From Chytridium lagenaria (taxonomy: Eukaryota; Chytridiomycota; Chytridiomycetes; Chytridiales; Chytridiaceae), in NCBI GenBank assembly GCA_025449115.1, contig JAHLKC010000158.1, positions 1 through 64,000 of the forward strand: DNA of 64,000 nucleotides, given 5' to 3'. The translations under genes were made by a program, and so were the position numbers. This document shows positions 2,938 to 45,062 of this stretch, piece after piece (the stretch's first letter is position 1; each line of letters starts with the position of its first letter). The notes beneath the pieces were generated by a model. That model searched no databases and was not told the origin of the DNA. It saw only the letters and a program-made list of their open reading frames with translations.

Positions 2938-4223
2938 TCACATAGCAACTTTTGCACTCTTTCGCGAAAACCTCCCCACAGTCACAGCCCTTTTTACATT
3001 GAACATGGGTTCCTCCTCCCCAGCCACCTTCATCTCCTCCATTTTCTCCACCTTCCCAAAAAACCCTGTCGAAGCCTTCCTCAACATCGGTTCACTCGGT
3101 CGTCTCCTCAACACCTTCCACGGCGACTCTACCGTTGGTGATATCGGCGTCAACTCACAAGCGGAATCAGCTGTTGACCGCGTTGATTTAGGGGAAGTGG
3201 GGTCGTCGTCGGATAAAGGTGGGGTTTCAGCGTCAGGTTGGCGACGGGAGAGGGAGAGAAAGGGGAAAAGGGAGGGGAGGATGATTTACGGGAGATGGAA
3301 CGACCGAGAGTGGAGGCGCGACGGGTTGGAGGGGAGGGTTCGGGTGTTGCGTAGACGATAGGTTCTTCAGGTGCGTCAAGGCCGGGACGGGAAGCCTTTC
3401 GAGATATCGTGTCCGTCTAAACACAAAACAAGGTTAACTACAACTAATTGATCCAATAGCCTACCCTCATTTGACTCCTTAAACCCCAAACTCCTATCCC
3501 CGCGATCCGTCGCCGCAACGACAAGGGCCTTTCCCAAATAATCCACTTTCCTCATGTTTCTCACTTTCTCCTCATGCGGTCTAAAGATCCCACTCCGTTC
3601 AACCCTAAACGGCCTACACCCTCCCATATCATCCATCATCGCCATCTCCATCCTCCCATGCCGTTCCGCATCGACCCGTTTGCGCATAGCATCGTCAAAG
3701 TCGGATACCGCTGCCTCCCGGTGTCCAAGACGAGAAAAGGCGAGACCGCGGTTAAAGTGGAGCTCACAGGCGTGGAGACGATGGGTGAGACCGAGTTGGG
3801 TGTAGTCAATGATAGGTTTCCACGGAGATGCTGCAAAGGATGAGAGGCGGTCCATGTTATGCTTTACTCACTGTAATGGCGTCGCTGAAATCGGCGAGAG
3901 CTTCTGTGAACATGTTTTCAGTGTAGAAAAAATAGCCGCGTTGAAAGTAGGCGACGGCGAGGTAGGTGTCGCAGGTGATGGCTTGAGACATTGATGAGAT
4001 CTATGACGTCAATAACGGCTGGTACATGAAAAACCTTACAGCTTGTTCGGGCATGTTGAGGTTCCAGAAGGTCATGGACATGTTGAAGTGCATTTTAGAG
4101 ACATCGGCTATGGGCTCGGGGTTGTTAGGTTAAATGTGAGTCAAAGTAAGGTAGTTTTACCTCAAAGATGGACACAGCGGTCTGAAAGTCACCTTCATCG
4201 AAAGCAACACACCACGATGCCAT
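2938..4223 (-). CDS. noxR: NoxR / p67phox-like NADPH oxidase regulator
   Basis: Regulatory subunit of fungal NADPH oxidase: its N-terminal TPR domain binds Rac-GTP and activates Nox. Reading from ATG at 4223: a first TPR piece (WCVAFDEGDFQTAVSIFE), an intron, DVSKMHFNMSMTFWNLNM, an intron, then YLAVAYFQRGYFFYTENM and the family hallmark LRGN followed by IDYTQLGLTHRLHACELHF. The stretch RPHEEKVRNMRKVDYLGKA matches the segment that follows the TPRs in NoxR. One base is missing near 3810, between LRGN and IDYTQ. An intron near 3400-3480 leads into a Ser/Pro/Arg-rich tail ending at TGA 2938-2940. Filamentous NoxR proteins normally carry a C-terminal PB1 domain; none is recognisable here. No Nox catalytic subunit lies in the window. 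Upstream extension of the start is blocked by a stop, so ATG 4223 is the best start unless an exon is missed. Confidence 0.85.
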
Positions 4224-26389: not shown

Positions 26390-26810
26390 TGAACTAAAGA
26401 ACCTCTCAGTCTCTCGCTGCACATCACTCTGCTGATGTCGTCGACGTCTTCGAGCAAAAGTGTTTGCTTCGCGCCGACTTTGTCGAACCGAATCCGTCTC
26501 TTGACTATCAAATCAATACCACTTCCCACGTCATTCAATACCTTGAATCCATCCACCGTAACCGTTTGCAACAAACTACGGAAATATTTATAAATAACCC
26601 ACTATATGATTCCCCCACCGTCTCAAAACACGGATAACAACAATAACATCATCAATTATTAAAATTCTACTTTTTTTTATTTTATTTGTTCACGTGGGAA
26701 CGACCCAATGAATACGATCCGTTAACCCGCCAATAAGAATGGTCGGTGAGGACGGACACCATAAGAATTTTATAATATTAGATGAGTTGAATGAATGAAT
26801 GAGAATGAGT

Positions 26811-27289
26811 TGTGAAGGGATGGACGTGTCTATAGGGTGTTAGGCGCGTTTTGGGGGGTTTTCGTAACGTGTCTTCACGCGGTGACGCGTCTGTAACGCG
26901 TGTATTGTAGCGTGACGCGTAACGAGAGGGCCTATAGTGGACAAGAAGTTAGTATTTTCGTGTCTGCGCTTGGAGAGTGTCTTAGGAGGGAGTGTCTTTT
27001 TCTTGGAAATACCTTTTGTCTTCTGGTGACGCTAGGAACGGGGTGCTTGTTTGTTGAACGGTTTCCTGTATGTGTCTAGGGGGAGTAAAGGGGGATTTTA
27101 CCTGTTTGGAGGACGTCTCGAGAGGGTACACTTTGTAAAGGCGGTTTTGAAATAAATACGTTCTTTATTCACTACACGCGTTCATCGTTCCTATACATAG
27201 TTTGATACCGTCTCGCCATCCCTATCGTCCTCCACGAGGTTCCAACACGACGAGTCAAGCTTACCTGTCACGGTACCCGTTCCTTGACA
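26811..27289 (+). repeat. Left LTR of the Ty3/gypsy-type element
   Basis: 479 bp starting TGTGAAGGGA and ending TTGACA. Near-identical to 36151-36623, with about ten differences and three small indels. It holds ACGCGT four times (26885, 26896, 26915, 27176). After it comes GAAGTGGTTGCGTCC, whose TGG a few bases in is the normal start of a tRNA primer-binding site. Confidence 0.95.
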
Positions 27290-27357
27290 GAAGTGGTTGC
27301 GTCCAGTTTTGAACAAAACCGATCGAGTCCCCAAGGTTAGAACTCGATCACCTTCCA

Positions 27358-30021
27358 ATGATGACGGCACTTGCCTCTTCCGACGTCCCGATCTTCGATG
27401 GTACCAACGAGTATCGTTTCCGAGAAGAGCTGGCCAAGCTCTACTCCAGGATCAAGCTGATGGGTTCGAAGGCTACAGATGATGCCATCATCGAGTACAT
27501 TATCGCTCACTGCTTCCCAGGAGCGGAGCATGTCAGGTCCACGGCAAAAGAATGGCAGCGGGTCACAAAGTCGGCAAAGCAGCCCATCCTTTTCGTTAAC
27601 TTTTTGAATCATTTGAAGGACGTATGGGGCTATGCAAACACAACAGTGACGCTTCAGCACCTCTACGCCCTCTCTCATCGATATAAAGGCATGCCAATCA
27701 CCAACCCGTGGTGGGAAGGGATTGTAGCAAACTTCAAGAGGTTGCAAAGCAGGATGGCTACGAAACCGACGGATCCGGAGATGGTGGACTTTGTGATGGC
27801 CCCTATGAGTGACACCATGAAGAATGGTGTTGCAGAGACCATCTACAGGTTTCGACAGACGGCGGCAATCAAGGCATCGATGGCAGCGGCTTCGGGTTCG
27901 ACGGCAGCTTCAGTCTTGGTTGAGAGTGTTGGGGGGTCTGGTATAGCTACCCAACCGTCGGGAGGAGCTCCAAGCATCAGCATCAATGACGTCGAGCGGC
28001 CGTTCACGCTGGATGAGGTTGAAGCCGCTGTAAGGAGCTACCTCAAGGTGATGAGACAGTTTACGGTGTTCGGCATGGAGGAGAGGGGTGCTGGGGTTGT
28101 GGATCCCGTAACGGAGGTGTTGGCGAAGGGTGCTTTCGGTTCTCCAGGGTGGCAAAGTGGTTTTGGAGGAGTACAGTTGGGCGAGGGTTTTGGACAGATG
28201 GGTGGTTTTAACATGGGGCATCAGGCGATGGGTGGAGTTCACGGCATTGACATTTTGGGAGGGGTTGGGGGGGAAAATCTACTGGAGAAAGCGAGGCTAG
28301 AAGAGCAGAGCAAGGCAGATAACTTTGCGAGGCTCATGAGTACAACTCCGTCTAAAAACCCCTCCCAACCTCAAGCAAGTACCCAGCCCGGCAAGCAAGT
28401 CCGTTTTGCAGACCCCAAGCAGGATCAAGCGCTGCAGGACCTCACTCTGCAGTTCCAAGACATGAAGCTTTTCGTCAACAAAGTCAACAAACAACTAGAC
28501 GTACTCACGAACGCAATTCTGAAACCATCGCAAGCGGTCAAGGCTAAGAATCCGCCAGGGGAGAAGACAGCTACGGGGCTTTTTCATGAGGTGGACTCCA
28601 TGGTGATGGGGACGGCGGCGTCTCAGGGTGTAAGATGTTACTATTGCGGTCTCCCAGGACACTATAAGGATCAATGCGAGATCCTTGTTAAAGACATCCT
28701 AGCAGGCGCTAAGGTGATTATAGCACCCGACAGACGGCTCCATTGGGTGGTGACGGACGTAGAGACGGGTGCAAGGAAGTTGGGAGAGGAGGTTAAAGGT
28801 CACCGCGAGGGGGCGCGGCATCATGTGATGGAGGTGGGGGAGGACCCGACTTACCAGGCAGCTCTCTCTCAAGTGGATTTCTCCCTGACTATCGAGGGGT
28901 ATGCGTTCAGCTTGGGCTCTGCTCTTGCAACGGAGGGGACACCACGCTGCAAGTCACCACCTGGAGCATCAGAGTCGGTTGTCACGGGGGAAACCACAGA
29001 AGAGATCCTAGTAGTAGAGGTCCAGTCGTTTTCGCCGTCCATAGCACCGTCAGACGTCTCAGAGGCGGAAGCACTGCGAGTGGTGGAGTCTCTGAACATG
29101 GAGGGTATCGGAAAGCCTGGTGATGGGGTACCGGTTTGGGTGATCTGTGAGGAAGTAGCCAAAGCGAGGGGCACGGCTGTTGTGGATGTGCAGGTTAAGA
29201 GGGTTAGGGATCCATTGGATGAGGGGGAGCAACCCCCACGTGTTGCGATCGACTGGCCCCCGAAGCCTGGTCAAGCGGTGGTCTACCCACGGAGGATGGA
29301 CCGACCCTCAAAGACGACCACCATAGAACCGACAACCTTACAACCAAGAATACCTTTACCGACGGGAATAAAGACGGGGACCCATACGAATCCTACTGTG
29401 ACGGCCACAGTTCCCACGGTGCAACAGGGTCCGGGTTTGAGCGTGGAAGAGTCGTTTCCGAGGGCTCCAGCGGATAATGTGGTGGCAGACGTCGATGAGG
29501 ACGCGGAGATGGGTGAGGAAGGAGATGCGCAAGGGAAAAGGAGCAGGAGAAGGAAGAAGAAGAAGAGTTCGGGAGCGGAAAAGTCGGCAGAAAAAGCGAC
29601 AACGTTGGAAGCTGGAAGTGTTGAGAGGGGAGGATCAGTAGGGCCTGGGGGTTCAGAGACGGGTAACGAAGCGTCAAAACCACTAGGCCCCTCTATATCC
29701 TTACCCGCTCCTCCCCCTCAAGACTACGCTATGCGCAGGGGCATCCATCTGACTCAAGGGGAGCTTCTTGTCGTGATAGACAAGCTTTTCAACCAGTCGG
29801 TGGATGCGTCAATGACGTGGGGACAGTTCCTGGCCTTTTCCCCAAGAGCAGTTCGTATGGTGATGGACAGGATAAAGGCTCGAAAGGTCCCCTTTGACGC
29901 TATTCCTGAAGGACCAGATGGCATGGCGGTGGACGAGGCTGTACTCGCAGCGTTCAACACGAAGGCTGTGCCTGAGGAGGACATGTACGACAGGTTTCTT
30001 AGCTGCTTTCTGGATGAATAG
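27358..30021 (+). CDS. gag: Gag-like protein of the LTR retrotransposon
   Basis: Uninterrupted frame of 887 codons starting at ATG 27358 in the primer-site-proximal leader. The N-terminal part (PIFDGTNEYRFREELAKLYS; WGYANTTVTLQHLYALSHRY) is the helical capsid region of the retrotransposon gag type. A CCHC zinc knuckle CYYCGLPGHYKDQC lies at residues 427-440. The long C-terminal half is low complexity, with a Lys/Arg-rich segment (KRSRRRKKKKSS) and acidic patches, and ends with a compact helical piece DMYDRFLSCFLDE. Gag this long with a large tail after the knuckle is typical of fungal gypsy elements. It has no frame error, in contrast with pol, so selection or good sequence here kept it open. 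Confidence 0.92.
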   Translation: MMTALASSDVPIFDGTNEYRFREELAKLYSRIKLMGSKATDDAIIEYIIAHCFPGAEHVRSTAKEWQRVTKSAKQPILFVNFLNHLKDVWGYANTTVTLQHLYALSHRYKGMPITNPWWEGIVANFKRLQSRMATKPTDPEMVDFVMAPMSDTMKNGVAETIYRFRQTAAIKASMAAASGSTAASVLVESVGGSGIATQPSGGAPSISINDVERPFTLDEVEAAVRSYLKVMRQFTVFGMEERGAGVVDPVTEVLAKGAFGSPGWQSGFGGVQLGEGFGQMGGFNMGHQAMGGVHGIDILGGVGGENLLEKARLEEQSKADNFARLMSTTPSKNPSQPQASTQPGKQVRFADPKQDQALQDLTLQFQDMKLFVNKVNKQLDVLTNAILKPSQAVKAKNPPGEKTATGLFHEVDSMVMGTAASQGVRCYYCGLPGHYKDQCEILVKDILAGAKVIIAPDRRLHWVVTDVETGARKLGEEVKGHREGARHHVMEVGEDPTYQAALSQVDFSLTIEGYAFSLGSALATEGTPRCKSPPGASESVVTGETTEEILVVEVQSFSPSIAPSDVSEAEALRVVESLNMEGIGKPGDGVPVWVICEEVAKARGTAVVDVQVKRVRDPLDEGEQPPRVAIDWPPKPGQAVVYPRRMDRPSKTTTIEPTTLQPRIPLPTGIKTGTHTNPTVTATVPTVQQGPGLSVEESFPRAPADNVVADVDEDAEMGEEGDAQGKRSRRRKKKKSSGAEKSAEKATTLEAGSVERGGSVGPGGSETGNEASKPLGPSISLPAPPPQDYAMRRGIHLTQGELLVVIDKLFNQSVDASMTWGQFLAFSPRAVRMVMDRIKARKVPFDAIPEGPDGMAVDEAVLAAFNTKAVPEEDMYDRFLSCFLDE

Positions 30022-30119
30022 ACCTGGACAAGGTTACTGGTGGGAAAATCACAGCAGAGCGGGCTGGTCAGGGCGCTGACGGGGTCACGGTCGAGTCCAA
30101 CTCCTTAGACGTCGTCAAC

Positions 30120-30790
30120 GTGATGAACTACAAGGTTTCTGTCGATGACGTCTTGAGTTTTTCCACAGAACTAGCCGAGGAGGACGGTGGAGAGTTTGGG
30201 AGGCCGGAGCACAATTACGAAACTCGCTGCAAGGTTGTGTGTGCGAGTCCGTCAGTGCCCCACGTCAAAGTCGGTCTCGGTCCAGACGCGGTTTATCTGG
30301 AAAAGTTACGTTAGATGGGGGATCACAAGTCATCACCGTTCGTCTATCCATTTATGAACGTGTAGCAGCAACAGCGGGGATTGAAGAGGGTGCTTCTATC
30401 AGCATGCGCGGTGCTCATGGCCACACTAGGAAACTAGTTGGTCTGGTGCCACGGCTTCCTGTGGGCATTTTTGGATTCACGTACTTTGTACAAGCCTTCA
30501 TCATCGACGACCGCATTGACCCGAAGCCTCCTTTTGGCCTTCTCTGGGCCAACCCTTCCTGGATCTTGCGCGAGCAGAGACCTCGTGGTCGGAGAATGGT
30601 GACCAGTGGACGCGTTTTCGAAGTCAGCAAGACCCCAAACTCGCCCTTAAAGCCAAGACGGTGGATGTACGCGACAAGGACAACCATACAACATGTCGAG
30701 TTTCCGTCAAGCAAGAGCGATGCACAACGACAGCTTCGCCTGTTTCTCGTGAAGCCTAGACGCACTATCTTGGCTGGAACAGGCACGCTT
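30120..30790 (+). CDS. Retropepsin-like aspartic protease region
   Basis: After gag the frame moves and encodes MMNYKVSVDDVLSFSTELAE. Following a shift near 30300 it gives KVTLDGGSQVITVRLSIYER, where LDGGS occupies the place of the D-S/T-G active site of retroviral-type proteases. GLVPRLPVGIFGFTYFVQAF follows, and PFGLLWANPSW resembles the F-[IL]-GxP/W motif downstream in fungal gypsy proteases. The catalytic triad variant DGG is non-standard. Two short frames must be joined, so the exact limits are uncertain. The protease would cleave Gag and Pol. Confidence 0.62.
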
Positions 30791-30799
30791 ACGTTCTTG

Positions 30800-32240
30800 C
30801 GTGTTAGCGCGTTTTGCGCGTCAAATACGTGTTCTTTTACTGGGATTCCTTTATTCTTTTCGTTTCTCTATTCGTTTCTTTTACACTCTTTTCTTTCTCC
30901 TTATATTTCCTTTCTTTTCTTTTTTTTATATCTCTTTTCCTACTTTCGTTTATTTGTTTTCAAAAAGTTACCGCACTTAAGACAGCGGCGCAAGCCTGAG
31001 GGTGGGCCCGGGCGATACGAGGGTCCCGTTGGCAGCCATGGCCACGGTGAAAAGACTAGTGTTCCCGTTCTAGTAGGGAGGACTCTTCTGTTTGGAAGTG
31101 TACGCATTTTATTCTCGTGCTTTTAAGCGTTTTTCCTGTATTTTTCTTCTTTGTTTCTTTCTACCTGTTATGGTTCTTTTCATTGGGAGGTGTTTGGCAA
31201 GTGACTCTTGCGTTGTTAACGCGCAAAGGAGCGCATTAGTCTTTTTCGCACTTAATGTTTTCTGGACCCCTAATTTGTTCTTCTCTGGTGGGTGTGTCTT
31301 TTGTGTCTTTCTTGTCTTGTCTTCACTTTGTGTCTGTTCCTATACCCTTGTCTCGGGAGTTAGCAAGCTGCTTGGATTAGGGGAGGAAGGAGGAAGTTGG
31401 ATCCAAAAATAAACATACCAGGAGGAGTCTCAAACCATCCCTTCTCATTCTCGCTCAGTGAACAGGCAGCATCAGGGCATCCGAGGCCGGGACACAATCA
31501 GCCGAGCCTTAACGAAGAGAGGGGATGACGAACAAGCGCGGCATCAACGCTCAAGAGGGTCGGGCGTCGTTTAGGGGAGAGACTGGGACGGTTAGCGATT
31601 GGGGAGAGTCTGACTGGACAGCAGGGGTGGACTCGTTCACTGTAACTGGACGGGCGGCTCACCTAGGCTGATGGGTCCACCTTCAAAGGGGTGTTGAGGG
31701 GTCTAGCAGAGGATGGTGGGACGTTGCAACGGCGATGGTGGGGGTTCAGGGGAAGCTAGGTCGTTCCTCAAGAAGAAGGTGTTTTGGGAGAGACTCTATC
31801 AGTGCCGTGGTGACAGCGGTCCACTCCATGGACACGCGAACCCTCCTCAAGATGGCTCTCCTTCGAGAGGAAGGCGTCGGAGTAGGCCACTGGACTGTGA
31901 GCTGTTGGATTGGTGCGGTGAGGTTGCTGGCTAGGGCGATGGGCTTTGGAGAGGTCCTTTTTGAGGAAGAAAAAGGGGGGATGGTGGACAGCATGACTAT
32001 GTACAAGCCACGTGGAGGAAGGTTCGCCCGTCGGCAAGTCCTTAGAAGGTGGTGTTGCCCCGCAGCCATGGGCAGAACAAGGATGACGAGTTGATGAGGA
32101 GGCGGTGAGGCTATGACGGCGGAACGTATCGAAACGCTTTGTAGTGAAGCGTCGTGGCTTCAAGCAGAGAGATGGGGCCCTCAAGTCGATGCTGAAGGAG
32201 GAAGCGGAGTCTTTCTCTTTCACCTTGGCCGACCGTGGAA
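30800..32240 (+). other. T-rich spacer and poorly conserved linker between protease and RT
   Basis: About 1.4 kb inside the retrotransposon. 30835-30960 and 31110-31330 are very T/C-rich on the plus strand. Between them is a motif that recurs near the 3' end of the element (see internal repeat). Open frames 31713-32286 on both strands have no recognised domain. A separate promoter or leader for pol could lie here; I see no proof. Confidence 0.4.
30960..31085 (+). repeat. Internal direct repeat of the retrotransposon, copy 1
   Basis: GTTACCGCACTTAAGACAGC and the following 100 bases resemble 35957-36070 (GTTACTGCACCTTAGACAGC, then CCTGAG, and a GGGAGG box about 110 bp later). Identity is clear over the first 35 bases and patchy after. 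Confidence 0.55.
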
Positions 32241-32249
32241 AGTTGACCA

Positions 32250-35200
32250 GCATCTGTGACCCGTCAAGATCCACACTATCCCTCACACGGCATGGAAGTT
32301 CAGACCACGCAAGATCCCCTATGCACAGTTAGACAAGCTGGTTGCTTCTTACGGGAGAAGTTGGACGCAGGGATAATGGAGCCATGCTTTGGTCCTTATG
32401 CCGCCAATTTCTTTGTCGTCCCAAAGAAGGATGGAGGGGTACGATGATTCAAGACCTACAGCCACTGAACGGGGTAACGATAAGGGACGCGGGGGTGCCG
32501 CCTCGTGTGGAGGAGATCGTCAACGCATACTCAGGATTGTTTATGGTGTCGCCGTTAGACTGTCACTCCTTTTACGACCAGTTTAGTCTGGACGTCGAGA
32601 GCAGGGACCTGACAGCGATAGCAACGCCGTTAGGCCTGATGCGCATGGTGACTCTTCCTATGGGGTGGACAAACTCGGTCCCATCGCTCAACGGGCTTCA
32701 GTCAAAATATTACAACCGTTCATCCCGAAGGAGGTGGAGCCCTACCTGGACGACTACGTAGTGAAGGGCCCGAAGGCAGCGGAAAACAGACCATCGGGAA
32801 ATCAGACTGGGCGTGCGGCATTTTGTTCAGGAGCACCTCGACACTCTACGAGCCATCTTGCAGAGGATTCGTGAATACGGTGCCACACTCTCGGGTACGA
32901 AATCCGTTTCTTTGCATTGGCGTGTGAAGTGTTGGGCCATTGGGTTAGCAGGGAAAGGCAACCGGGCCGATAAAAGCAGCAAAACTAGCGTTGTGGGAAA
33001 CATCAGCACTGTACAGGAGGTTCGCCTTCCTAGGACTTGCTACATTCTTTAGGAGATACATCGCACTTTCAATGAGGGCTGACCCTCTTTATCGAATGCT
33101 TAGGAAGAATGCGAGGTTTACGAGCGAGTGTTGGGTGGAAGTGCAACGTGCTAAGCAGGACTTGGGATCGGCGTTGGGTGCACAGCCGGTACTGCGGCCG
33201 ATAGTGTATGGGGGGAATGCTGGTCGACTTTACCTCTCAGTGGACGCGTCGCCAAAGGGTTGGGGTGCGTGGGTTGGTCAAGAGGATGGAGCGGGGGGAA
33301 GGAATGCGGTGTCGTTCTTTTCTGGTCGTTTTAACGGCACGGAGCAGATATACGACCAGACAAAGAGGGAGGTTTTAGCAGCGTTGAGGGGCTTGAAGGC
33401 CGCGCATCAGTACGTATGGGGGGCCGACTTCACACTGGAAACGGACGCCAAGGCGCTGATTGGCTCACTAGGTCGGATTGAGACGCTGGACGCTACGCAG
33501 CAGCGATGGTTGCTGGCCATAAGGGCTTACCATCCGACAGTCCGTCACGTGAGTGGAAAAGTTAACACGGTTGCAGATACGCTGAGTAGGCACAATCTGG
33601 ATAACGCACCAAGCGACGATGGTGAAGACTTGGAGGATCACGTTGATGATATCCTAGGTATGCCAGCGGTTCATCAGGCGGGGCAGGGTCTCCAAGCGGT
33701 TCATCAGCCGAGGCGCCTCTCGATCAAGATTCTTTCCTGGAATGTTAACTCGACGCGTAACGCTGCTAAGCGTATGGGTAGCGCCTTCGGGACCACCATT
33801 CTGTCCTATGACGTTATTTTCTTGCAGGAGACACGTCAAGGAAAATGCCGCTTTGACCGCGTGCCTGGTTTCGACTTTGAAGAATCTCACAAAGCGTTCT
33901 TTGTCGATTTCCCGGTTGTGGATGGAGTAGGGTGGGGGAGGAATGGTGTGGCTATACTAGTGAGGAAAGGTTTCTTCGGGGGTGACATACCCGATGAGCG
34001 GAGGTTGTGCTTTGATGGATGGACAATAAGGAGATGGAAGGAGATACATAGAGCTACGGTTTGGAAGGGTGGTTCTCATCTCTGTTTACTTTCCAGCGGC
34101 GATCCGCAATAGGGACTTCCGTATTCCGTACAAGATGGCTTTCTCCCGCGCGGCAACGGCACGTTTCTCGGCGCTAGAAGACAGAGGGAACTTGCTACTG
34201 ATTGGTGGTGACTGGAACGTGTCTCAAACACCTCTGGATATCCACCCATCAGCTCTCAGTCTTATCAACTCCGGGTTTCGGGACGAAGAACGCGAATGGC
34301 TGTCCGACCTCTGTTCTAAGTTTATCGACACCTACCGTATCAAGCACCCGCATAGGGTGTCGTATACAACGTGGTGGCGTCAGGATCGACGTCATAATGT
34401 TGGTTTCCGTTTGACGGTATTCTGGTTTCGAAGGGCAACATCTTGAAGGCAGACCATCTTGTTATTAGGGGATCTGATCACATCCCTGTCACTGCGGAGG
34501 TGATTTTGCGTAGATACCGTCATTGTGGGGATTGAGAAAGCCGATGGACGTTGGAAGACTTACACGTAGCAATGGCGCTGGAGGGGTTGGACATTTCTAC
34601 GCGTTTGGGACAGGTTTATTGGTTTCTTTGGAGGGGTTCACCACCAGATGGTCAGCAGGTCGGCAGCGGCTAGCCTGAAGAGGCAGGCCACGCTGTACTT
34701 CATTGCAAACGGTCGTCTCTTCGCCACCCGCAAGGCAAGCGCACTACACCCAGAGAGTCGTCGGCTCTGTAGAATGGCGGGAGAGTATTGTCAAGGAAGC
34801 CACGAGGGTTTTGGTGGGGGGCACCGGAGTGTCATGGGGACAGGCGAGAAGGTACAACGTCGTTACTTCTGGCCAGGTCTCTGGGATGACGTGAAAGCCT
34901 TCATCAAGACCTGTGATGGGTGCCAGCGGCAAAACCCCAAGCAATTCTACGAGAAGCTGGAGATTCAAGAGGGTCGCCTGATGCCAACAGCGTTCAGGAG
35001 GTGGCATATCGATCTCGTTACGATGGAGGTACAAGGAAGTACTAGCGCTATTCGTGGAAGAGATTACAGGGTGGGTGGAGGGTGTACCATGACTGCTAAG
35101 ACGGCCTTGCCGATACTGAAAGTCATGGAGAGAGAGGTGTTTTCGCGATACGGGGTCCCAATGGAGGTGGTCATCGATGGCGGGGAGCTTGATGGACACG

Positions 35201-35916
35201 AGATTCAGAAACTGGCGTCGAGGATGGGGTTTGACGTGAGGGTTACAATGGCATACGGCCAGCAAGCTAACGGTTTGGTTGAGCGTGCAAACGTTCCTAT
35301 TGTCAGCGCGCTAGCCAAAGCCTGTGAAGGCCGCGCATATCAATATGAGCGTTACCTGCCAGCCGCGTTGTGGGCATCGAGGATAACGGTCCGTTCCACA
35401 CGCAGTTTAGCCCTTTCGAGCTCCTGTTTGGACAGGAACCAGTTCTACCCATTGAGTTCGCCATTGACACTTATGCCGTCATCCAATGGACACGTATGAC
35501 GACGGTTGAGCTCCTGGCGGCAAGGATTCGCATGCTTCAGCGCAGGGACTACGACATCGAGGAGGCAAAGCGACGTATTGAACGAGCTAGGGTTGTGAGG
35601 GCGGAGGCATTCAACAAAGGACACTTGATTCGCCTGCATCAGAGGCGATTGAGGAGGGGGACCTCGTTGTCGTAGGGACTCCAAGCTGGACAATATGAAA
35701 GGAGTGAAGCTCAGATGGAGGTACTTCGGCCCATTTTGGGTTCGCGGTAGAGGACGAACACATACCTACTGGCGGAGATGGACGGGTCCCATACAGAAGC
35801 CAATTCAAGGGGCACGGGTCCGCTTTACCGGAAACGGGACGAAGGCCCGGATGACTTCCCGGTTCACCTACTTGACGAGGAGGAAGACGAAGAAGGCAGC
35901 TCCAGTGAGGACGTAG
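32250..35916 (+). CDS. pol: Pol of the LTR retrotransposon: RT, RNase H, endonuclease, integrase (frame broken)
   Basis: Reverse transcriptase begins near 32250 (WKFRPRKIPYAQLDKLV), with VVPKKDGGVRMIQDLQPLNG, LTAIATPLGLMRMVTLPMGW and the active site YLDDYVVKG near 32741. After frame breaks at about 32370, 32690, 32790 and 32990, a frame of 373 codons (32991-34112) covers the connection, RNase H (LSVDASPKGWGAWVGQ, KREVLAALRGLKAAHQYVWG, TDAKALIGSL, HVSGKVNTVADTLSR) and the first half of an APE-type endonuclease. That domain finishes at about 34534. Integrase follows from 34648 with a chromo-like or SH3-like end to 35916. Order RT-RNase H-endonuclease-integrase is unusual. Breaks may be partly sequencing error and partly real decay. 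Confidence 0.9.
33718..34534 (+). other. APE/ExoIII-type endonuclease (EEP) domain within pol
   Basis: Complete EEP fold signature in order: SIKILSWNVNSTRNA (catalytic Asn), DVIFLQETRQG (catalytic Glu), NGVAILVRKGF, then after a one-base shift near 34065 VLISVYFPA (the Tyr motif), LLLIGGDWNVSQTPLDI (Asp and Asn), and after a missing base near 34415 FRLDGILVSK and RGSDHIPVTAEV (the Ser-Asp-His motif). All positions known to be needed in AP endonucleases appear present. Domains of this kind are standard in LINE elements but not in LTR elements, which integrate by integrase. It is fused in frame to RNase H, and no LINE reverse transcriptase is nearby. Confidence 0.9.
34648..35916 (+). other. Integrase domain of the LTR retrotransposon
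   Basis: Begins with a helical piece and the HHCC zinc finger (GHRSVMGTGEKVQRRYFWPG then IKTCDGCQRQNPK). The DDE core has AFRRWHIDLVTM (first Asp), MEVVIDGGELDG (second Asp) and GQQANGLVERANV (Glu). The C-terminal end after frame changes near 35390 and 35670 reads LKLRWRYFGPFWV-like sequence, the GPF/Y-type module of gypsy integrases. With the duplication GAGT this explains the insertion mechanism. Confidence 0.88.
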
Positions 35917-35954
35917 GGGTGGAGTTTTGGGATGCGTGTAGATAGAGTGAGGAG

Positions 35955-36070
35955 GGAAAAGGTTACTGCACCTTAGACAGCAGCGCTCGCCCTGAGTGAT
36001 GGAGGGGTTCCACCGAGTTTTGTCGCGGCTGGTGGCTAAGAAGTTTAGCGTCCCTACTAATCGGGAGGCC
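35955..36070 (+). repeat. Internal direct repeat of the retrotransposon, copy 2
   Basis: Copy near the right LTR matching 30960-31085, starting GTTACTGCACCTTAGACAGC. It lies in the 3' untranslated part, before the purine stretch GAGAGGGG (about 36134) that could be the polypurine tract. Confidence 0.55.
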
Positions 36071-36150
36071 GGTGGGGTGTGGTCACAAGAACGCCACTGA
36101 TGGACTGGGTAATCCAATGAGGGCATTGGACCTGAGAGGGGTTCATCAGA

Positions 36151-36623
36151 TGTGAAGGGATGGGCGTGTCTATAGGGTGTTAGGCGCGTTTTGGGGGGTT
36201 TTCGTAACGAGTCTTCACGCGGTGACGCGTCTGTAAGCGTGCATTGTAGCGTGACGCGTAACGAGAGGACCTATAGTGGACAAAAAGTTGTATTTTCGTG
36301 TCTGCGCTTGGAGAGTGTCTTAGGAGGGTGTCTTTTTTGGAAATACCTTTTGTCTTCTGGTGACGCTAGGAACGGGGTGCTTGTTTGTTGAACGGTTTCC
36401 TGTATGTGTCTAGGGGGAGTAAAGGGGGATTTTACCTGTTTGGAGGACGTCTCGAGAGGGTACACTTTGTAAAGGCGGTTTTGAAATAAATACGTTCTTT
36501 ATTCACTACACGCGTTCATCGTTCCTATACATAGTTTGATACCGTCTCGCCATCCCTATCGTCCTCCACGAGGTTCCAACACGACGAGTCAAGCTTACCT
36601 GTCACGGTACCCGTTCCTTGACA
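36151..36623 (+). repeat. Right LTR of the Ty3/gypsy-type element
   Basis: 473 bp, TGTGAAGGGA to TTGACA, followed by the target duplication GAGT. It lies about 200 bp upstream of the protoglobin B start codon, so its promoter activity could reach that gene. Confidence 0.95.
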
Positions 36624-36826
36624 GAGTCAGTTCTATATTCCTTTCTTTTTATGCACATTCTATTACTACCATCACATAGGTAAAGAAAAGTATTTAAACC
36701 CCCAACCACCAGTGCTTTCACCCCCTTCTTTTTCTTTACTCATTCCATCCACTCTTTACGCGCTAATCACTGCTCTACTCTCTACTCTCTACTACTCCTA
36801 CTCCTATTCTACAAATCATACTTAAA
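36624..36826 (+). promoter_or_regulatory. Remaining promoter and leader of protoglobin B
   Basis: Only about 200 bp of original promoter separate the right LTR from the start codon. It contains TATTTAAAC (about 36690) and then a CT-rich leader with repeats of CTCTACTCT, a usual fungal transcription-start feature. Confidence 0.5.
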
Positions 36827-42959: not shown

Positions 42960-43200
42960 TTTTGATGTGACGACGCAACTGCAAAAACGTGAACTCTTGA
43001 GGAAAAGCCTCTCAAAATTCATAAAAGCGTCGCGGCTGTGATAAGTGGAGATGAAGCGGAGTTGGGGAGCTTTTCGGGGTGATTTGTGTTATGTGTCAGA
43101 TTTTTACGGTTGGAGAAAACTTTGAGTATATAATGTCGAAACCGTTTGGACGGACGGAGGGGAAGAAGACGGAGACGCTCATTGTGGCGGGAGAGAGGGA
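42960..43200 (+). pseudogene. RPL7 relic
   Basis: Nucleotide sequence GAGTTGGGGAGCTTTTCGGG then GTGATTTGTGTTATGTGTCA and GATTTTTACGGTTGGAGAAA follows RPL7 bases for [20 protein letters not shown] in order. In translation QIFTVGENFEYIMSKPFGR then TEGKKTETL mirrors [12 protein letters not shown] then [17 protein letters not shown]. About 80 bases upstream also align loosely with the segment for [12 protein letters not shown]. It is on the strand opposite to the real RPL7 gene 3.7 kb away, with an internal deletion and frame loss. Confidence 0.75.
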
Positions 43201-43521
43201 GGTCCTTTTCCAAAAACGTTTTTACAAACGTATTGTTTTCATGCGCTCTTTTCGACTTTCCCCAGCACCCCTCTAATCTCATATGCGCTTCTATTTAGCG
43301 GTGCGCTCGTTGCCAGCCCGCATAATCGTGTTTTGGTTTACTTAAAAAGGTGGATATCGTCAGTTGCTTGATTACTTGTTACCGCAGAAAAGGTGTGGAA
43401 ATCATACTGATGCTGTAATTACGTGTCTTTATGTTTTAATGTTCCAAATCAAGTTTAACGATATTCATGTGTGGAAAAGGGTTTGAGTTGCGGCACGGGC
43501 CTTGGAAAGGGTTCAGTGAAA
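43106..43521 (+). repeat. Long direct repeat, copy 1
   Basis: Starts inside the RPL7 relic (ACGGTTGGAGAAAACTTTGA) and continues through TTTATTTAGCGGTGCGCTCG-like unique sequence to GGAAAGGGTTCAGTG. Very similar to 44585-45062, so the relic was already decayed when the block duplicated. Confidence 0.9.
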
Positions 43522-44054
43522 GGCTGGCTCATGAAACGCTAAAAATAAAAAAGGAAGAGTGTCAGATTTATGTACACAATAATAAAGATATAATATCTCT
43601 TACATACCGAGATCTTATCATAAAAAGGAATGATATTTCTTCCTGGATCTTCCAGGCACACGCGACAGTAAGCTTGTCCTCCTCAGATGATTCAATTATA
43701 CCAAGAACGGCAATAAAAGCCGATCAGAATCAGGGCCCCACGCGAACTGAGCACATCAACGGCACCGATGACAGAACAGACCTTTCCGGTGACGGCGGCA
43801 CTAGCGGTGGCGAGGCAACGGCGAGCTGTGGATATATCATAGACTCAGTTAGTATTTAGAAATCCATAAGAGGATGTCACATGCAAAACTTACAAGAGAG
43901 GGAGGAGCCAAAAGGCCGATTCATATCCTCCTCAATGATTTTTAAGAAACCCAAAACATACGCATGATGAGAGGCTCTAATTGCTTATAAGAGTAAGTTT
44001 AACATGTACATTACAACAGCGGAGACGCCTTGAAGAAGAAAAAGCAAGACTCGT

Positions 44055-44459
44055 CCAGCGGAGACATTCCCACCCAACCAGATCATCAAAGTAGTTCAAT
44101 TACATTGACTCAACCGGGTCAAAGTGGTTCAATCATCTTGTACAATCCCTTTTAAAGGAATCGCCGCCAGGTCCAGCGCTAAACCGTCCACCTGTATGGA
44201 ATCACGACGGGTCGGGCCAGCCACATCTTATGGCAGAGTCTTTGCACAAGAAAAACGAGCAAGAGGAAGTGTGAAGGGTCCCAGCGGAGACATTCCCACC
44301 CAACCAGGTCATCAAAGTTTCAATTACATTGACTCAACCAGGTCAAAGTGGTTCAATCATCTTGTACAATCCCTTTTAAAGGAATCGCCGCCAGGTCCAG
44401 CGCTAAACCGTCCACCTGTTTGGAATCACGACGGGTCGGGCCAGCCACATCTTATGGCA
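44055..44459 (+). repeat. Tandem pair of a 180-bp unit
   Basis: Unit CCAGCGGAGACATTCCCACC to CACATCTTATGGCA occurs at 44055-44235 and 44281-44459, separated by 45 bp, with few differences (three bases AGT missing in copy 2). No coding sense is recognised; both contain GGAATCGCCGCCAGGTCCAG. Confidence 0.9.
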
Positions 44460-44584
44460 CCTTTTCCCACACCATAAACTTGCACGCACAATGTAAGGAA
44501 TGGGGTGAGGGGAGCAGGGTTCACTCATCTGATCTCTGAACTATGTATTGAACACTCTCAAGTTAAATTTTCATTCATGTTGCA

Positions 44585-45062
44585 TACGGTTGGAGAAAAC
44601 TTTGAGTATATAATGTCGAAACCGTTTGGACGGACGGAGGAAAAGAAGACGGAGACCCTTATCGTGGCGGAGAGAGGGAGGTCCTGAGCATCGTGGTGGG
44701 AATACGATCAATGGGATTTTGGAGAAGATAAAGTATACATATTGTTAAAGCCTCTTTCCATTCTAAAACGTTTTTACAAACGTATTGTTTTCATGCGCTC
44801 TTTTCTTTCCCCAGCACCCCTCTAATCTCATATGCGCTTCTATTTAGCGGTGCGCTCGTTGCCAGCCCGCATAATCGTGTTTTGGTTTACTTAAAAAGGT
44901 GGATATCGTCAGTTGCTTGATTACTTGTTACCGCAGAAAAGGTGTGGAAATCATACTGATGCTGTAAATACGTGTCTTTGTTTTAATGTTCCAAATCAAG
45001 TTTAACGGAATTCCTTTGGAAAAGAGTTTGAGTTGCGGCGCGGGCTTGGAAAGGGTTCAGTG
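44585..45062 (+). repeat. Long direct repeat, copy 2
   Basis: Matches 43106-43521 but has about 66 extra bases (about 44687-44760, GAGCATCGTGGTGGGAATAC onward) between the RPL7-like part and the rest. Confidence 0.9.

Follow-up and report, generated by a model that had tools for sequence, protein, structure and literature searches.

An ExoIII/APE-type nuclease domain between RNase H and integrase in Ty3/gypsy-type retrotransposons of Chytridium lagenaria

Introduction

Many Ty3/gypsy-type elements in the genome of the chytrid Chytridium lagenaria carry an ExoIII/APE-type nuclease (here called EEP, after its superfamily) as a regular domain of pol, placed between RNase H and integrase. LINEs have their EEP domain ahead of the reverse transcriptase (RT), lack both LTRs and an integrase, and use homologous EEP domains to nick target DNA. 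To our knowledge, LTR elements have been taken to need integrase only to deal with target DNA, and an EEP domain has been read as the mark of a LINE. The published list of parts for active Gypsy elements of Batrachochytrium salamandrivorans consists of GAG, an aspartic proteinase, RT and a DDE integrase (PMC9926174), and a fungal survey places Exo_endo_phos under the LINE order, with the domain being not exclusively TE-derived (PMC10799480). We analyzed a window of 64,000 nucleotides (assembly GCA_025449115.1, contig JAHLKC010000158.1, positions 1 to 64,000), in which a first-pass annotation had proposed an LTR retrotransposon with a complete APE-type endonuclease between RNase H and integrase, together with related elements in the genome searched (41.9 Mb, 356 contigs).

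The window element

A Ty3/gypsy-type LTR element occupies window positions 26811-36623. Its borders were fixed from the TG/CA ends and the target duplication: the 5′ LTR (26811..27289, TG...CA) and the 3′ LTR (36151..36623), both placed by the LTR alignment, lie between two copies of the target sequence GAGT (26807..26810 and 36624..36627), a duplication read for one insertion, that of the window copy. The LTRs are identical at 474 of 481 aligned bases, with 6 gap positions (26805-27291 aligned with 36145-36625). A genome search with the 5′ LTR gives 14 matches, both window LTRs counted, and these include C94, C115, C63, C23:373385 and C240; in the C94, C115 and C63 elements the 3′ LTR match stops at base 170, and the flank is common to all three. 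Elsewhere in the window, positions 43105-44984 hold direct repeats of 41-180 bases that are 94-100% identical and lie about 1.5 kb apart.

All features of the element are on the plus strand. A gag-like open frame of 902 aa (27313..30021) has a weak CCHC knuckle, its zf-CCHC match scoring 15.8 bits, under the cut-off of 20.8. It is followed by a protease-like stretch in frame 2 (30299..30556), so named for its DGG motif, which shares 81% identity with the corresponding region of the related C11 element; Pfam returned no protease family match for the window frames or the C11 frame. The RT (32027..33025) is frame-shifted and was located by tblastn with the C11 frame, its RVT_1 match of 15.9 bits being under the cut-off of 29.6. 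RNase H (PF17917) lies at 33228..33530 with 74.6 bits. The EEP nuclease comes next, in three pieces: a first part with SWNVN and QET in the RNase H frame (33720..34043; 138.9 bits against the C11 EEP), a middle part with VYFP and GGDWN in a different frame (34033..34416; 189 bits), and a last part with SDHIPV, recognized from the translation after another frame change (34416..34502). Downstream are the integrase zinc-binding domain (PF17921; 34783..34938; 56.1 bits), the frame-shifted D..D..E region of the integrase core (34990..35340, approximate borders), with WHIDLV, VIDGGEL and NGLVER in its translation, and an integrase C-terminal part without a Pfam match (35400..35772). Frame 34570-35499 gave no rve match in Pfam at E up to 1.

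The Pfam profile search confirms that the RNase H open frame runs into the EEP domain and that an integrase follows. Frame 32949-34109 (387 aa) matches RT_RNaseH (E 8e-20) and positions 1-82 of the 225 in Exo_endo_phos (E 1.4e-5; 25.4 bits with a cut-off of 24.5), and Integrase_H2C2 is matched downstream in frame 34570-35499 (E 4.9e-14). The description of the integrase as a zinc-finger DDE enzyme likewise held, with its H2C2 match and its D, D, E residues kept; all three residues stand in one frame in 6 of 9 frames (L067, L068, L054, L061, L035 and L032), and L049 and two L033 frames each have part of the set. The word complete, as applied to the endonuclease, holds for single frames of relatives but not for the window copy, where the EEP is split over frames. 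Since the window pol carries frame shifts, this copy encodes no intact polyprotein.

Relatives and genome-wide occurrence

In relatives, the three domains are read without interruption. The L033 frame at 4992-6953 matches Exo_endo_phos over positions 1-225 of 225 (E 5.4e-14), with RNase H ahead of it and Integrase_H2C2 behind; the L067 and L068 frames likewise have RNase H, a whole EEP and integrase; and C198, C95 and C11/C137 have RNase H, EEP and integrase within one natural frame. That of C198 (2573 aa, 2335 examined) and a 1604-aa natural frame at C95:93985-98799 each contain RT, RNase H, EEP, H2C2 and rve. The pol domains border the EEP directly in natural frames, which supports an APE-type nuclease as a standing, selected part of the pol of an LTR element.

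The window frame has 73 matches in the genome. C63, C115 and C94 are 85-89% identical to it, with RNase H and EEP present; C11 and C137 show 70% identity to it across query residues 104-362, and in each of them a 653-aa frame matches RNase H, EEP and H2C2; and C95:105k is a broken relative of the window type, 49-62% identical. The copies are not independent insertions, because the C137 and C11 EEPs are 100% identical and C63, C115 and C94 are near-copies with a common flank. Copies lacking the domain had been named in advance as evidence against the reading; all seven located window-type pol copies (the window, C63, C115, C94, C11, C137 and C95:105k) retain some of the domain or all of it. Closest among the elements without an EEP are C194, C160 and C356, which form a sister lineage and are not copies of the window element.

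Genome-wide, the Pfam EEP model has at least 105 matches, and the lists of EEP, RNase H, H2C2 and RT matches are lower bounds. Loci were joined by coordinates, using 105 of 105 and 60 of 61 EEP rows, 82 of 82 for RNase H, 84 of 84 for H2C2 and 113 of 150 for RT. Among the matches listed, 57 of 78 merged RNase H loci have H2C2 less than 9 kb downstream, and an EEP lies between the two in 31 of these 57 (30 by coordinates, plus C13, where a 75-aa EEP piece of 91 bits sits inside a gap of 2462 bases). The gap between RNase H and H2C2 measures 1222-2545 bases in the 30 EEP-holding loci, with one of 7318, and the remaining 26 of the 57 listed loci, without EEP, show ordinary gaps of 199-496 bases. 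At four further listed RNase H loci, an EEP is present without an integrase call (one EEP being 4 kb off), and 17 have neither. Viewed from the nuclease, 30 of 107 listed merged EEP loci lie between an upstream RNase H and a downstream H2C2, 16 have H2C2 only, 4 have RNase H only, 23 are LINE-like with RT directly downstream, and 34 have none of these; as the omitted RT rows affect the LINE label alone, some of the 34 may be LINEs.

A second and larger group of elements, the C type, to which C198 and C95:93985-98799 belong, has a conserved module of about 150 aa ahead of the EEP, perhaps repeated in C324 (L054:2206-2778; L057:2335-2832 and 2980-3357; L067:3016-3513; L068:4503-4910). This module has no Pfam match, and a search against the PDB gave weak ubiquitin matches only, the best at E 0.0017. 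A PUA/ASCH-like identity, guessed from reading the module, was dropped on these results.

Kind of nuclease and selection

The EEP domain belongs with ExoIII and APE. The L033 EEP matches ExoIII (5j8n) at E 4.6e-29, which together with the recurring domain order described above excludes a chance arrangement, and the best match of a second EEP query among solved structures is again ExoIII-type, at E 8.9e-29. Among solved structures, bacterial ExoIII and ExoA, plant ARP and APE1 come closest, the APE1 entries ranking below those of ExoIII type, and no LINE endonuclease appears among the structure matches of either query at E up to 1. The sequence match extends over the whole domain, and the N, E, Y, D/N, D and DH catalytic residues, whose roles we assign from APE1, are present. 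Among 50 unique EEP fragments, those spanning each site keep N in 29 of 32, E in 30 of 33, Y in 27 of 29, D in 25 of 26, N in 24 of 26, D in 23 of 24, D in 19 of 21 and H in 19 of 21; fragments without a catalytic residue look shifted or decayed. The window-type EEP has Ala in place of the Asn of the APE1 YxPN motif, and if this Asn acts here as it presumably does in APE1, the preference of the window type for AP sites may be weaker.

Selection keeps the EEP of these elements. We made 17 EEP comparisons of dN/dS (NG86), of which 11 are saturated at synonymous sites and thus silent on selection, and the 6 unsaturated ones range from 0.04 to 0.12. These are C76/C155 at 0.10 (95% range 0.05-0.19), C324/C234 at 0.04 (0.02-0.07), window/C94 at 0.12 (0.05-0.22) and 0.04 (0.01-0.10), C11/C95a at 0.10 (0-0.19), and C11/C94 at 0.09, the last at dS 3.0. 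In the C76/C155 pair, the integrase stands at 0.15 and the module before the EEP at 0.31. The proposed check for purifying selection was answered by low values in 6 of the 17 comparisons, with catalytic residues mostly kept.

Origin of the domain

Trees of the EEP domain place the element EEPs with ExoIII/APE and away from the LINE EEPs of the same genome, which is the comparison that the first-pass annotation had called for. The separating branch has support of 100/100 with two LINE rows and of 92/93 with three; two of the LINE rows have an unusual amino-acid make-up. The partial rows C56, C229, C94 and C95a were left out of the EEP trees, as was LINE row L074, and the two-LINE tree was also built without LINE row C47. 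In a search for a host APE1 as donor, C71:40039-40915 emerged as a spliced candidate, and L080 is a piece of a likely APE2; both stand outside the trees.

How many times the domain entered gypsy elements was asked of different parts of pol. In the EEP tree, the window type and the C type each make up a group of their own, both on long branches, and a tree constrained to place both in one clade is as good as the free tree (AU p 0.504); derivation of the C-type EEP from APE2 is not rejected (AU p 0.309). The EEP tree is thus compatible with one capture or two and cannot tell between them. The tree of RT-RNase H groups the window type with C194, C160 and C356, which lack the EEP (100/100), and places the C type apart from them, beside C131b, a long row that is also EEP-less (85/86). 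A single clade of EEP-bearing rows is rejected in this tree (AU p 1.7e-9, 26 rows) and in an 11-row repeat in which the C type is poorly resolved at 46/73 (AU p 1.7e-4), both runs carrying a warning of long branches meeting. An integrase tree of 8 rows, with no outgroup, sets the window type, an element of Obelidium mucronatum and EEP-less relatives apart from the C type. From these trees, it is possible that the EEP was gained twice, that it was exchanged between elements, or that it was gained and then lost.

Relatives in other species were sought among 5.8 billion proteins, and EEP relatives were found in three named chytrids: Chytridiales sp. JEL 0842 (P0001; 42% identity over 88% of the query), Obelidium mucronatum (P0002; 36% over 89%), and Chytridium lagenaria itself (P0004; 94% over 34% of a C-type EEP, the gene model stopping inside the EEP). 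P0002 is collinear with C11 from RNase H through the EEP to integrase, at 38% identity across 590 aa; parts of the EEP are missing from its gene model, in which Pfam recognizes H2C2 but not the EEP. By this alignment, the fused order that had been sought in fungal genomes exists in one named chytrid besides our species. In P0001, the stretch after the EEP matches a pre-RT region (29% over 160 aa), so here the EEP may precede RT. Structure prediction gave no usable model, either for P0004 or for P0001 taken together with three database proteins (mean pLDDT 34.7 and 30.5). P0003 and P0005 are EEP proteins that are not from LTR elements; P0003, 933 aa from an ENA contig of 3308 bases, has an ExoIII-like domain followed by a group II intron-like RT (PF08388, PF13655). 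A scan of IMG/VR with two EEPs gave no relative.

Comparison with known systems

As in Ty3/gypsy elements (Metaviridae), the elements studied here have LTRs, a short target duplication, RT, RNase H, H2C2 and a DDE integrase in the same order; domain searches of the window relatives and the genome recover the order RT, RNase H, integrase. For the C198 RT-RNase H, the E values are 6e-87 against Ty3 (7q5b) and 1.7e-87 against 4ol8, and the window RNase H frame matches 7q5b at E 1.2e-11. The difference lies in the EEP between RNase H and integrase, to which the C type adds the conserved module ahead of the EEP. We found no report of an EEP in Ty3/gypsy pol in the literature searched, whose scope ended short of Repbase and most subscription journals; within that scope, the order is not a described standard class, as the first-pass annotation had supposed.

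With APE-type LINEs, these elements share an RT and an EEP-superfamily nuclease in a single element. Unlike LINEs, they have the EEP after RNase H, together with LTRs and an integrase, and the LINE EEPs of the same genome separate from theirs in trees. Two endonucleases in one retroelement are also reportedly found in the Dualen/RandI LINEs, which Kojima and Fujiwara are said to have described in 2005; there, an APE is paired with a restriction-like endonuclease in a LINE, whereas here an ExoIII/APE-type nuclease is paired with a DDE integrase in an LTR element. The match to ExoIII, APE1 and APE2 covers the whole domain and its catalytic residues, but the element enzyme sits in a retrotransposon polyprotein, and the window type departs at the Asn of YxPN. 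Some lentiviruses have a dUTPase, an enzyme against uracil damage, between RNase H and integrase. In both cases, an additional nucleic-acid-quality enzyme occupies the same pol slot; the enzymes are unrelated, however, and dUTPase blocks the entry of uracil, while an AP endonuclease would come into play once a base has been removed.

Possible functions of the nuclease

The function we prefer for the EEP, tentatively and at a little under an even chance, is repair or end-cleaning of the cDNA rather than target nicking, a choice favored by its ExoIII/APE character and by its position in pol. The nuclease would be produced within Gag-Pol and carried into the virus-like particle, where it would act on the element's own cDNA, cutting abasic sites or cleaning blocked or frayed 3′ ends, after which integrase would insert the DNA in the usual way. 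The architecture itself we regard as nearly certain. As a whole, the account of a selected pol domain that is packaged and works on element cDNA has, in our judgment, about an even chance of being correct.

The nearest rival, which we consider unlikely, is that the EEP serves reverse transcription, by removing the primer, trimming cDNA 3′ ends or supplying a 3′-OH for priming. Enzymes of the ExoIII type act as 3′ exonucleases and show an RNase H-like activity, and the EEP follows RNase H in frame. Downstream of the 5′ LTR, 14 bases that may serve as the primer site recur exactly at one other place in the genome (C165:54113-54126), a place absent from the 86 tRNAs listed, so that priming by a tRNA is no more than possible. 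With 62 of 1880 tRNA candidates scored, a matching tRNA may well exist. EEP-less gypsy relatives exist in the same genome, so a step carried out by the EEP is not a general requirement of the class.

Nicking of the chromosomal target by the EEP, which would give the element two target-cleaving enzymes, for instance for site choice or for opening a strand for the integrase complex, is improbable. Homologous LINE domains do nick their target, and the EEP precedes integrase in pol; the distance of about 0.4 kb between a window-type LTR at C23:373385-373863 and a tRNA gene (C23:372893-372964) is a lone pointer to site choice. However, the EEP resembles ExoIII/APE and not LINE enzymes, and the two target-cleavage activities suggested in the first-pass annotation are not shown. 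The full LTR ends and 4-base duplication of the one readable insertion and the kept integrase D, D, E are as expected for integration by integrase alone, the duplication in itself disfavoring a LINE-like nick as the main route. Of 49 EEP-bearing loci, none lies less than 3 kb from a site in a partial tRNA list (55 of the 86, cluster neighbors left out), and the same test gives 2 of 26 EEP-less gypsy loci and 6 of 24 LINE loci; in view of the C23 LTR, EEP-bearing elements may nevertheless target tRNA genes. In these six LINE loci (C80:169506, C114:110794, C114:127607, C291:14120, C314:10917 and C148:37546, some of which may be near-copies), the EEP midpoint is 2.0-2.4 kb from a listed tRNA gene, which suggests a tRNA-associated LINE family.

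We reject, as having a negligible probability unless all the families were joined wrongly, the reading that the domain does nothing for the element and came in as part of a nested LINE, by misassembly or as an exon of the host. In its favor, the window copy is frame-shifted and LINE EEPs are common (the 23 listed loci above). Against it, single natural frames span both junctions in three families, dN/dS is low, the Obelidium mucronatum protein aligns in the same order, and the EEP is not LINE-like in structure matches or in the tree.

Implications

A broader reading, which we regard as rather unlikely, would make these elements a dual-nuclease class of chytrid LTR retrotransposons that took up an AP endonuclease on two or more occasions, in the window and C lineages, and use it in replication or insertion, an APE-type cut being combined with integrase. 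For annotation, the finding means that elements with both EEP and integrase can be mistaken for LINEs. The presence of the EEP in two separate gypsy lineages suggests a recurring need that the domain answers. EEP-bearing elements and EEP-less relatives in one genome form a natural comparison set for asking if the DNA made by reverse transcription has to be repaired at abasic sites or cleaned at its ends before it is integrated.
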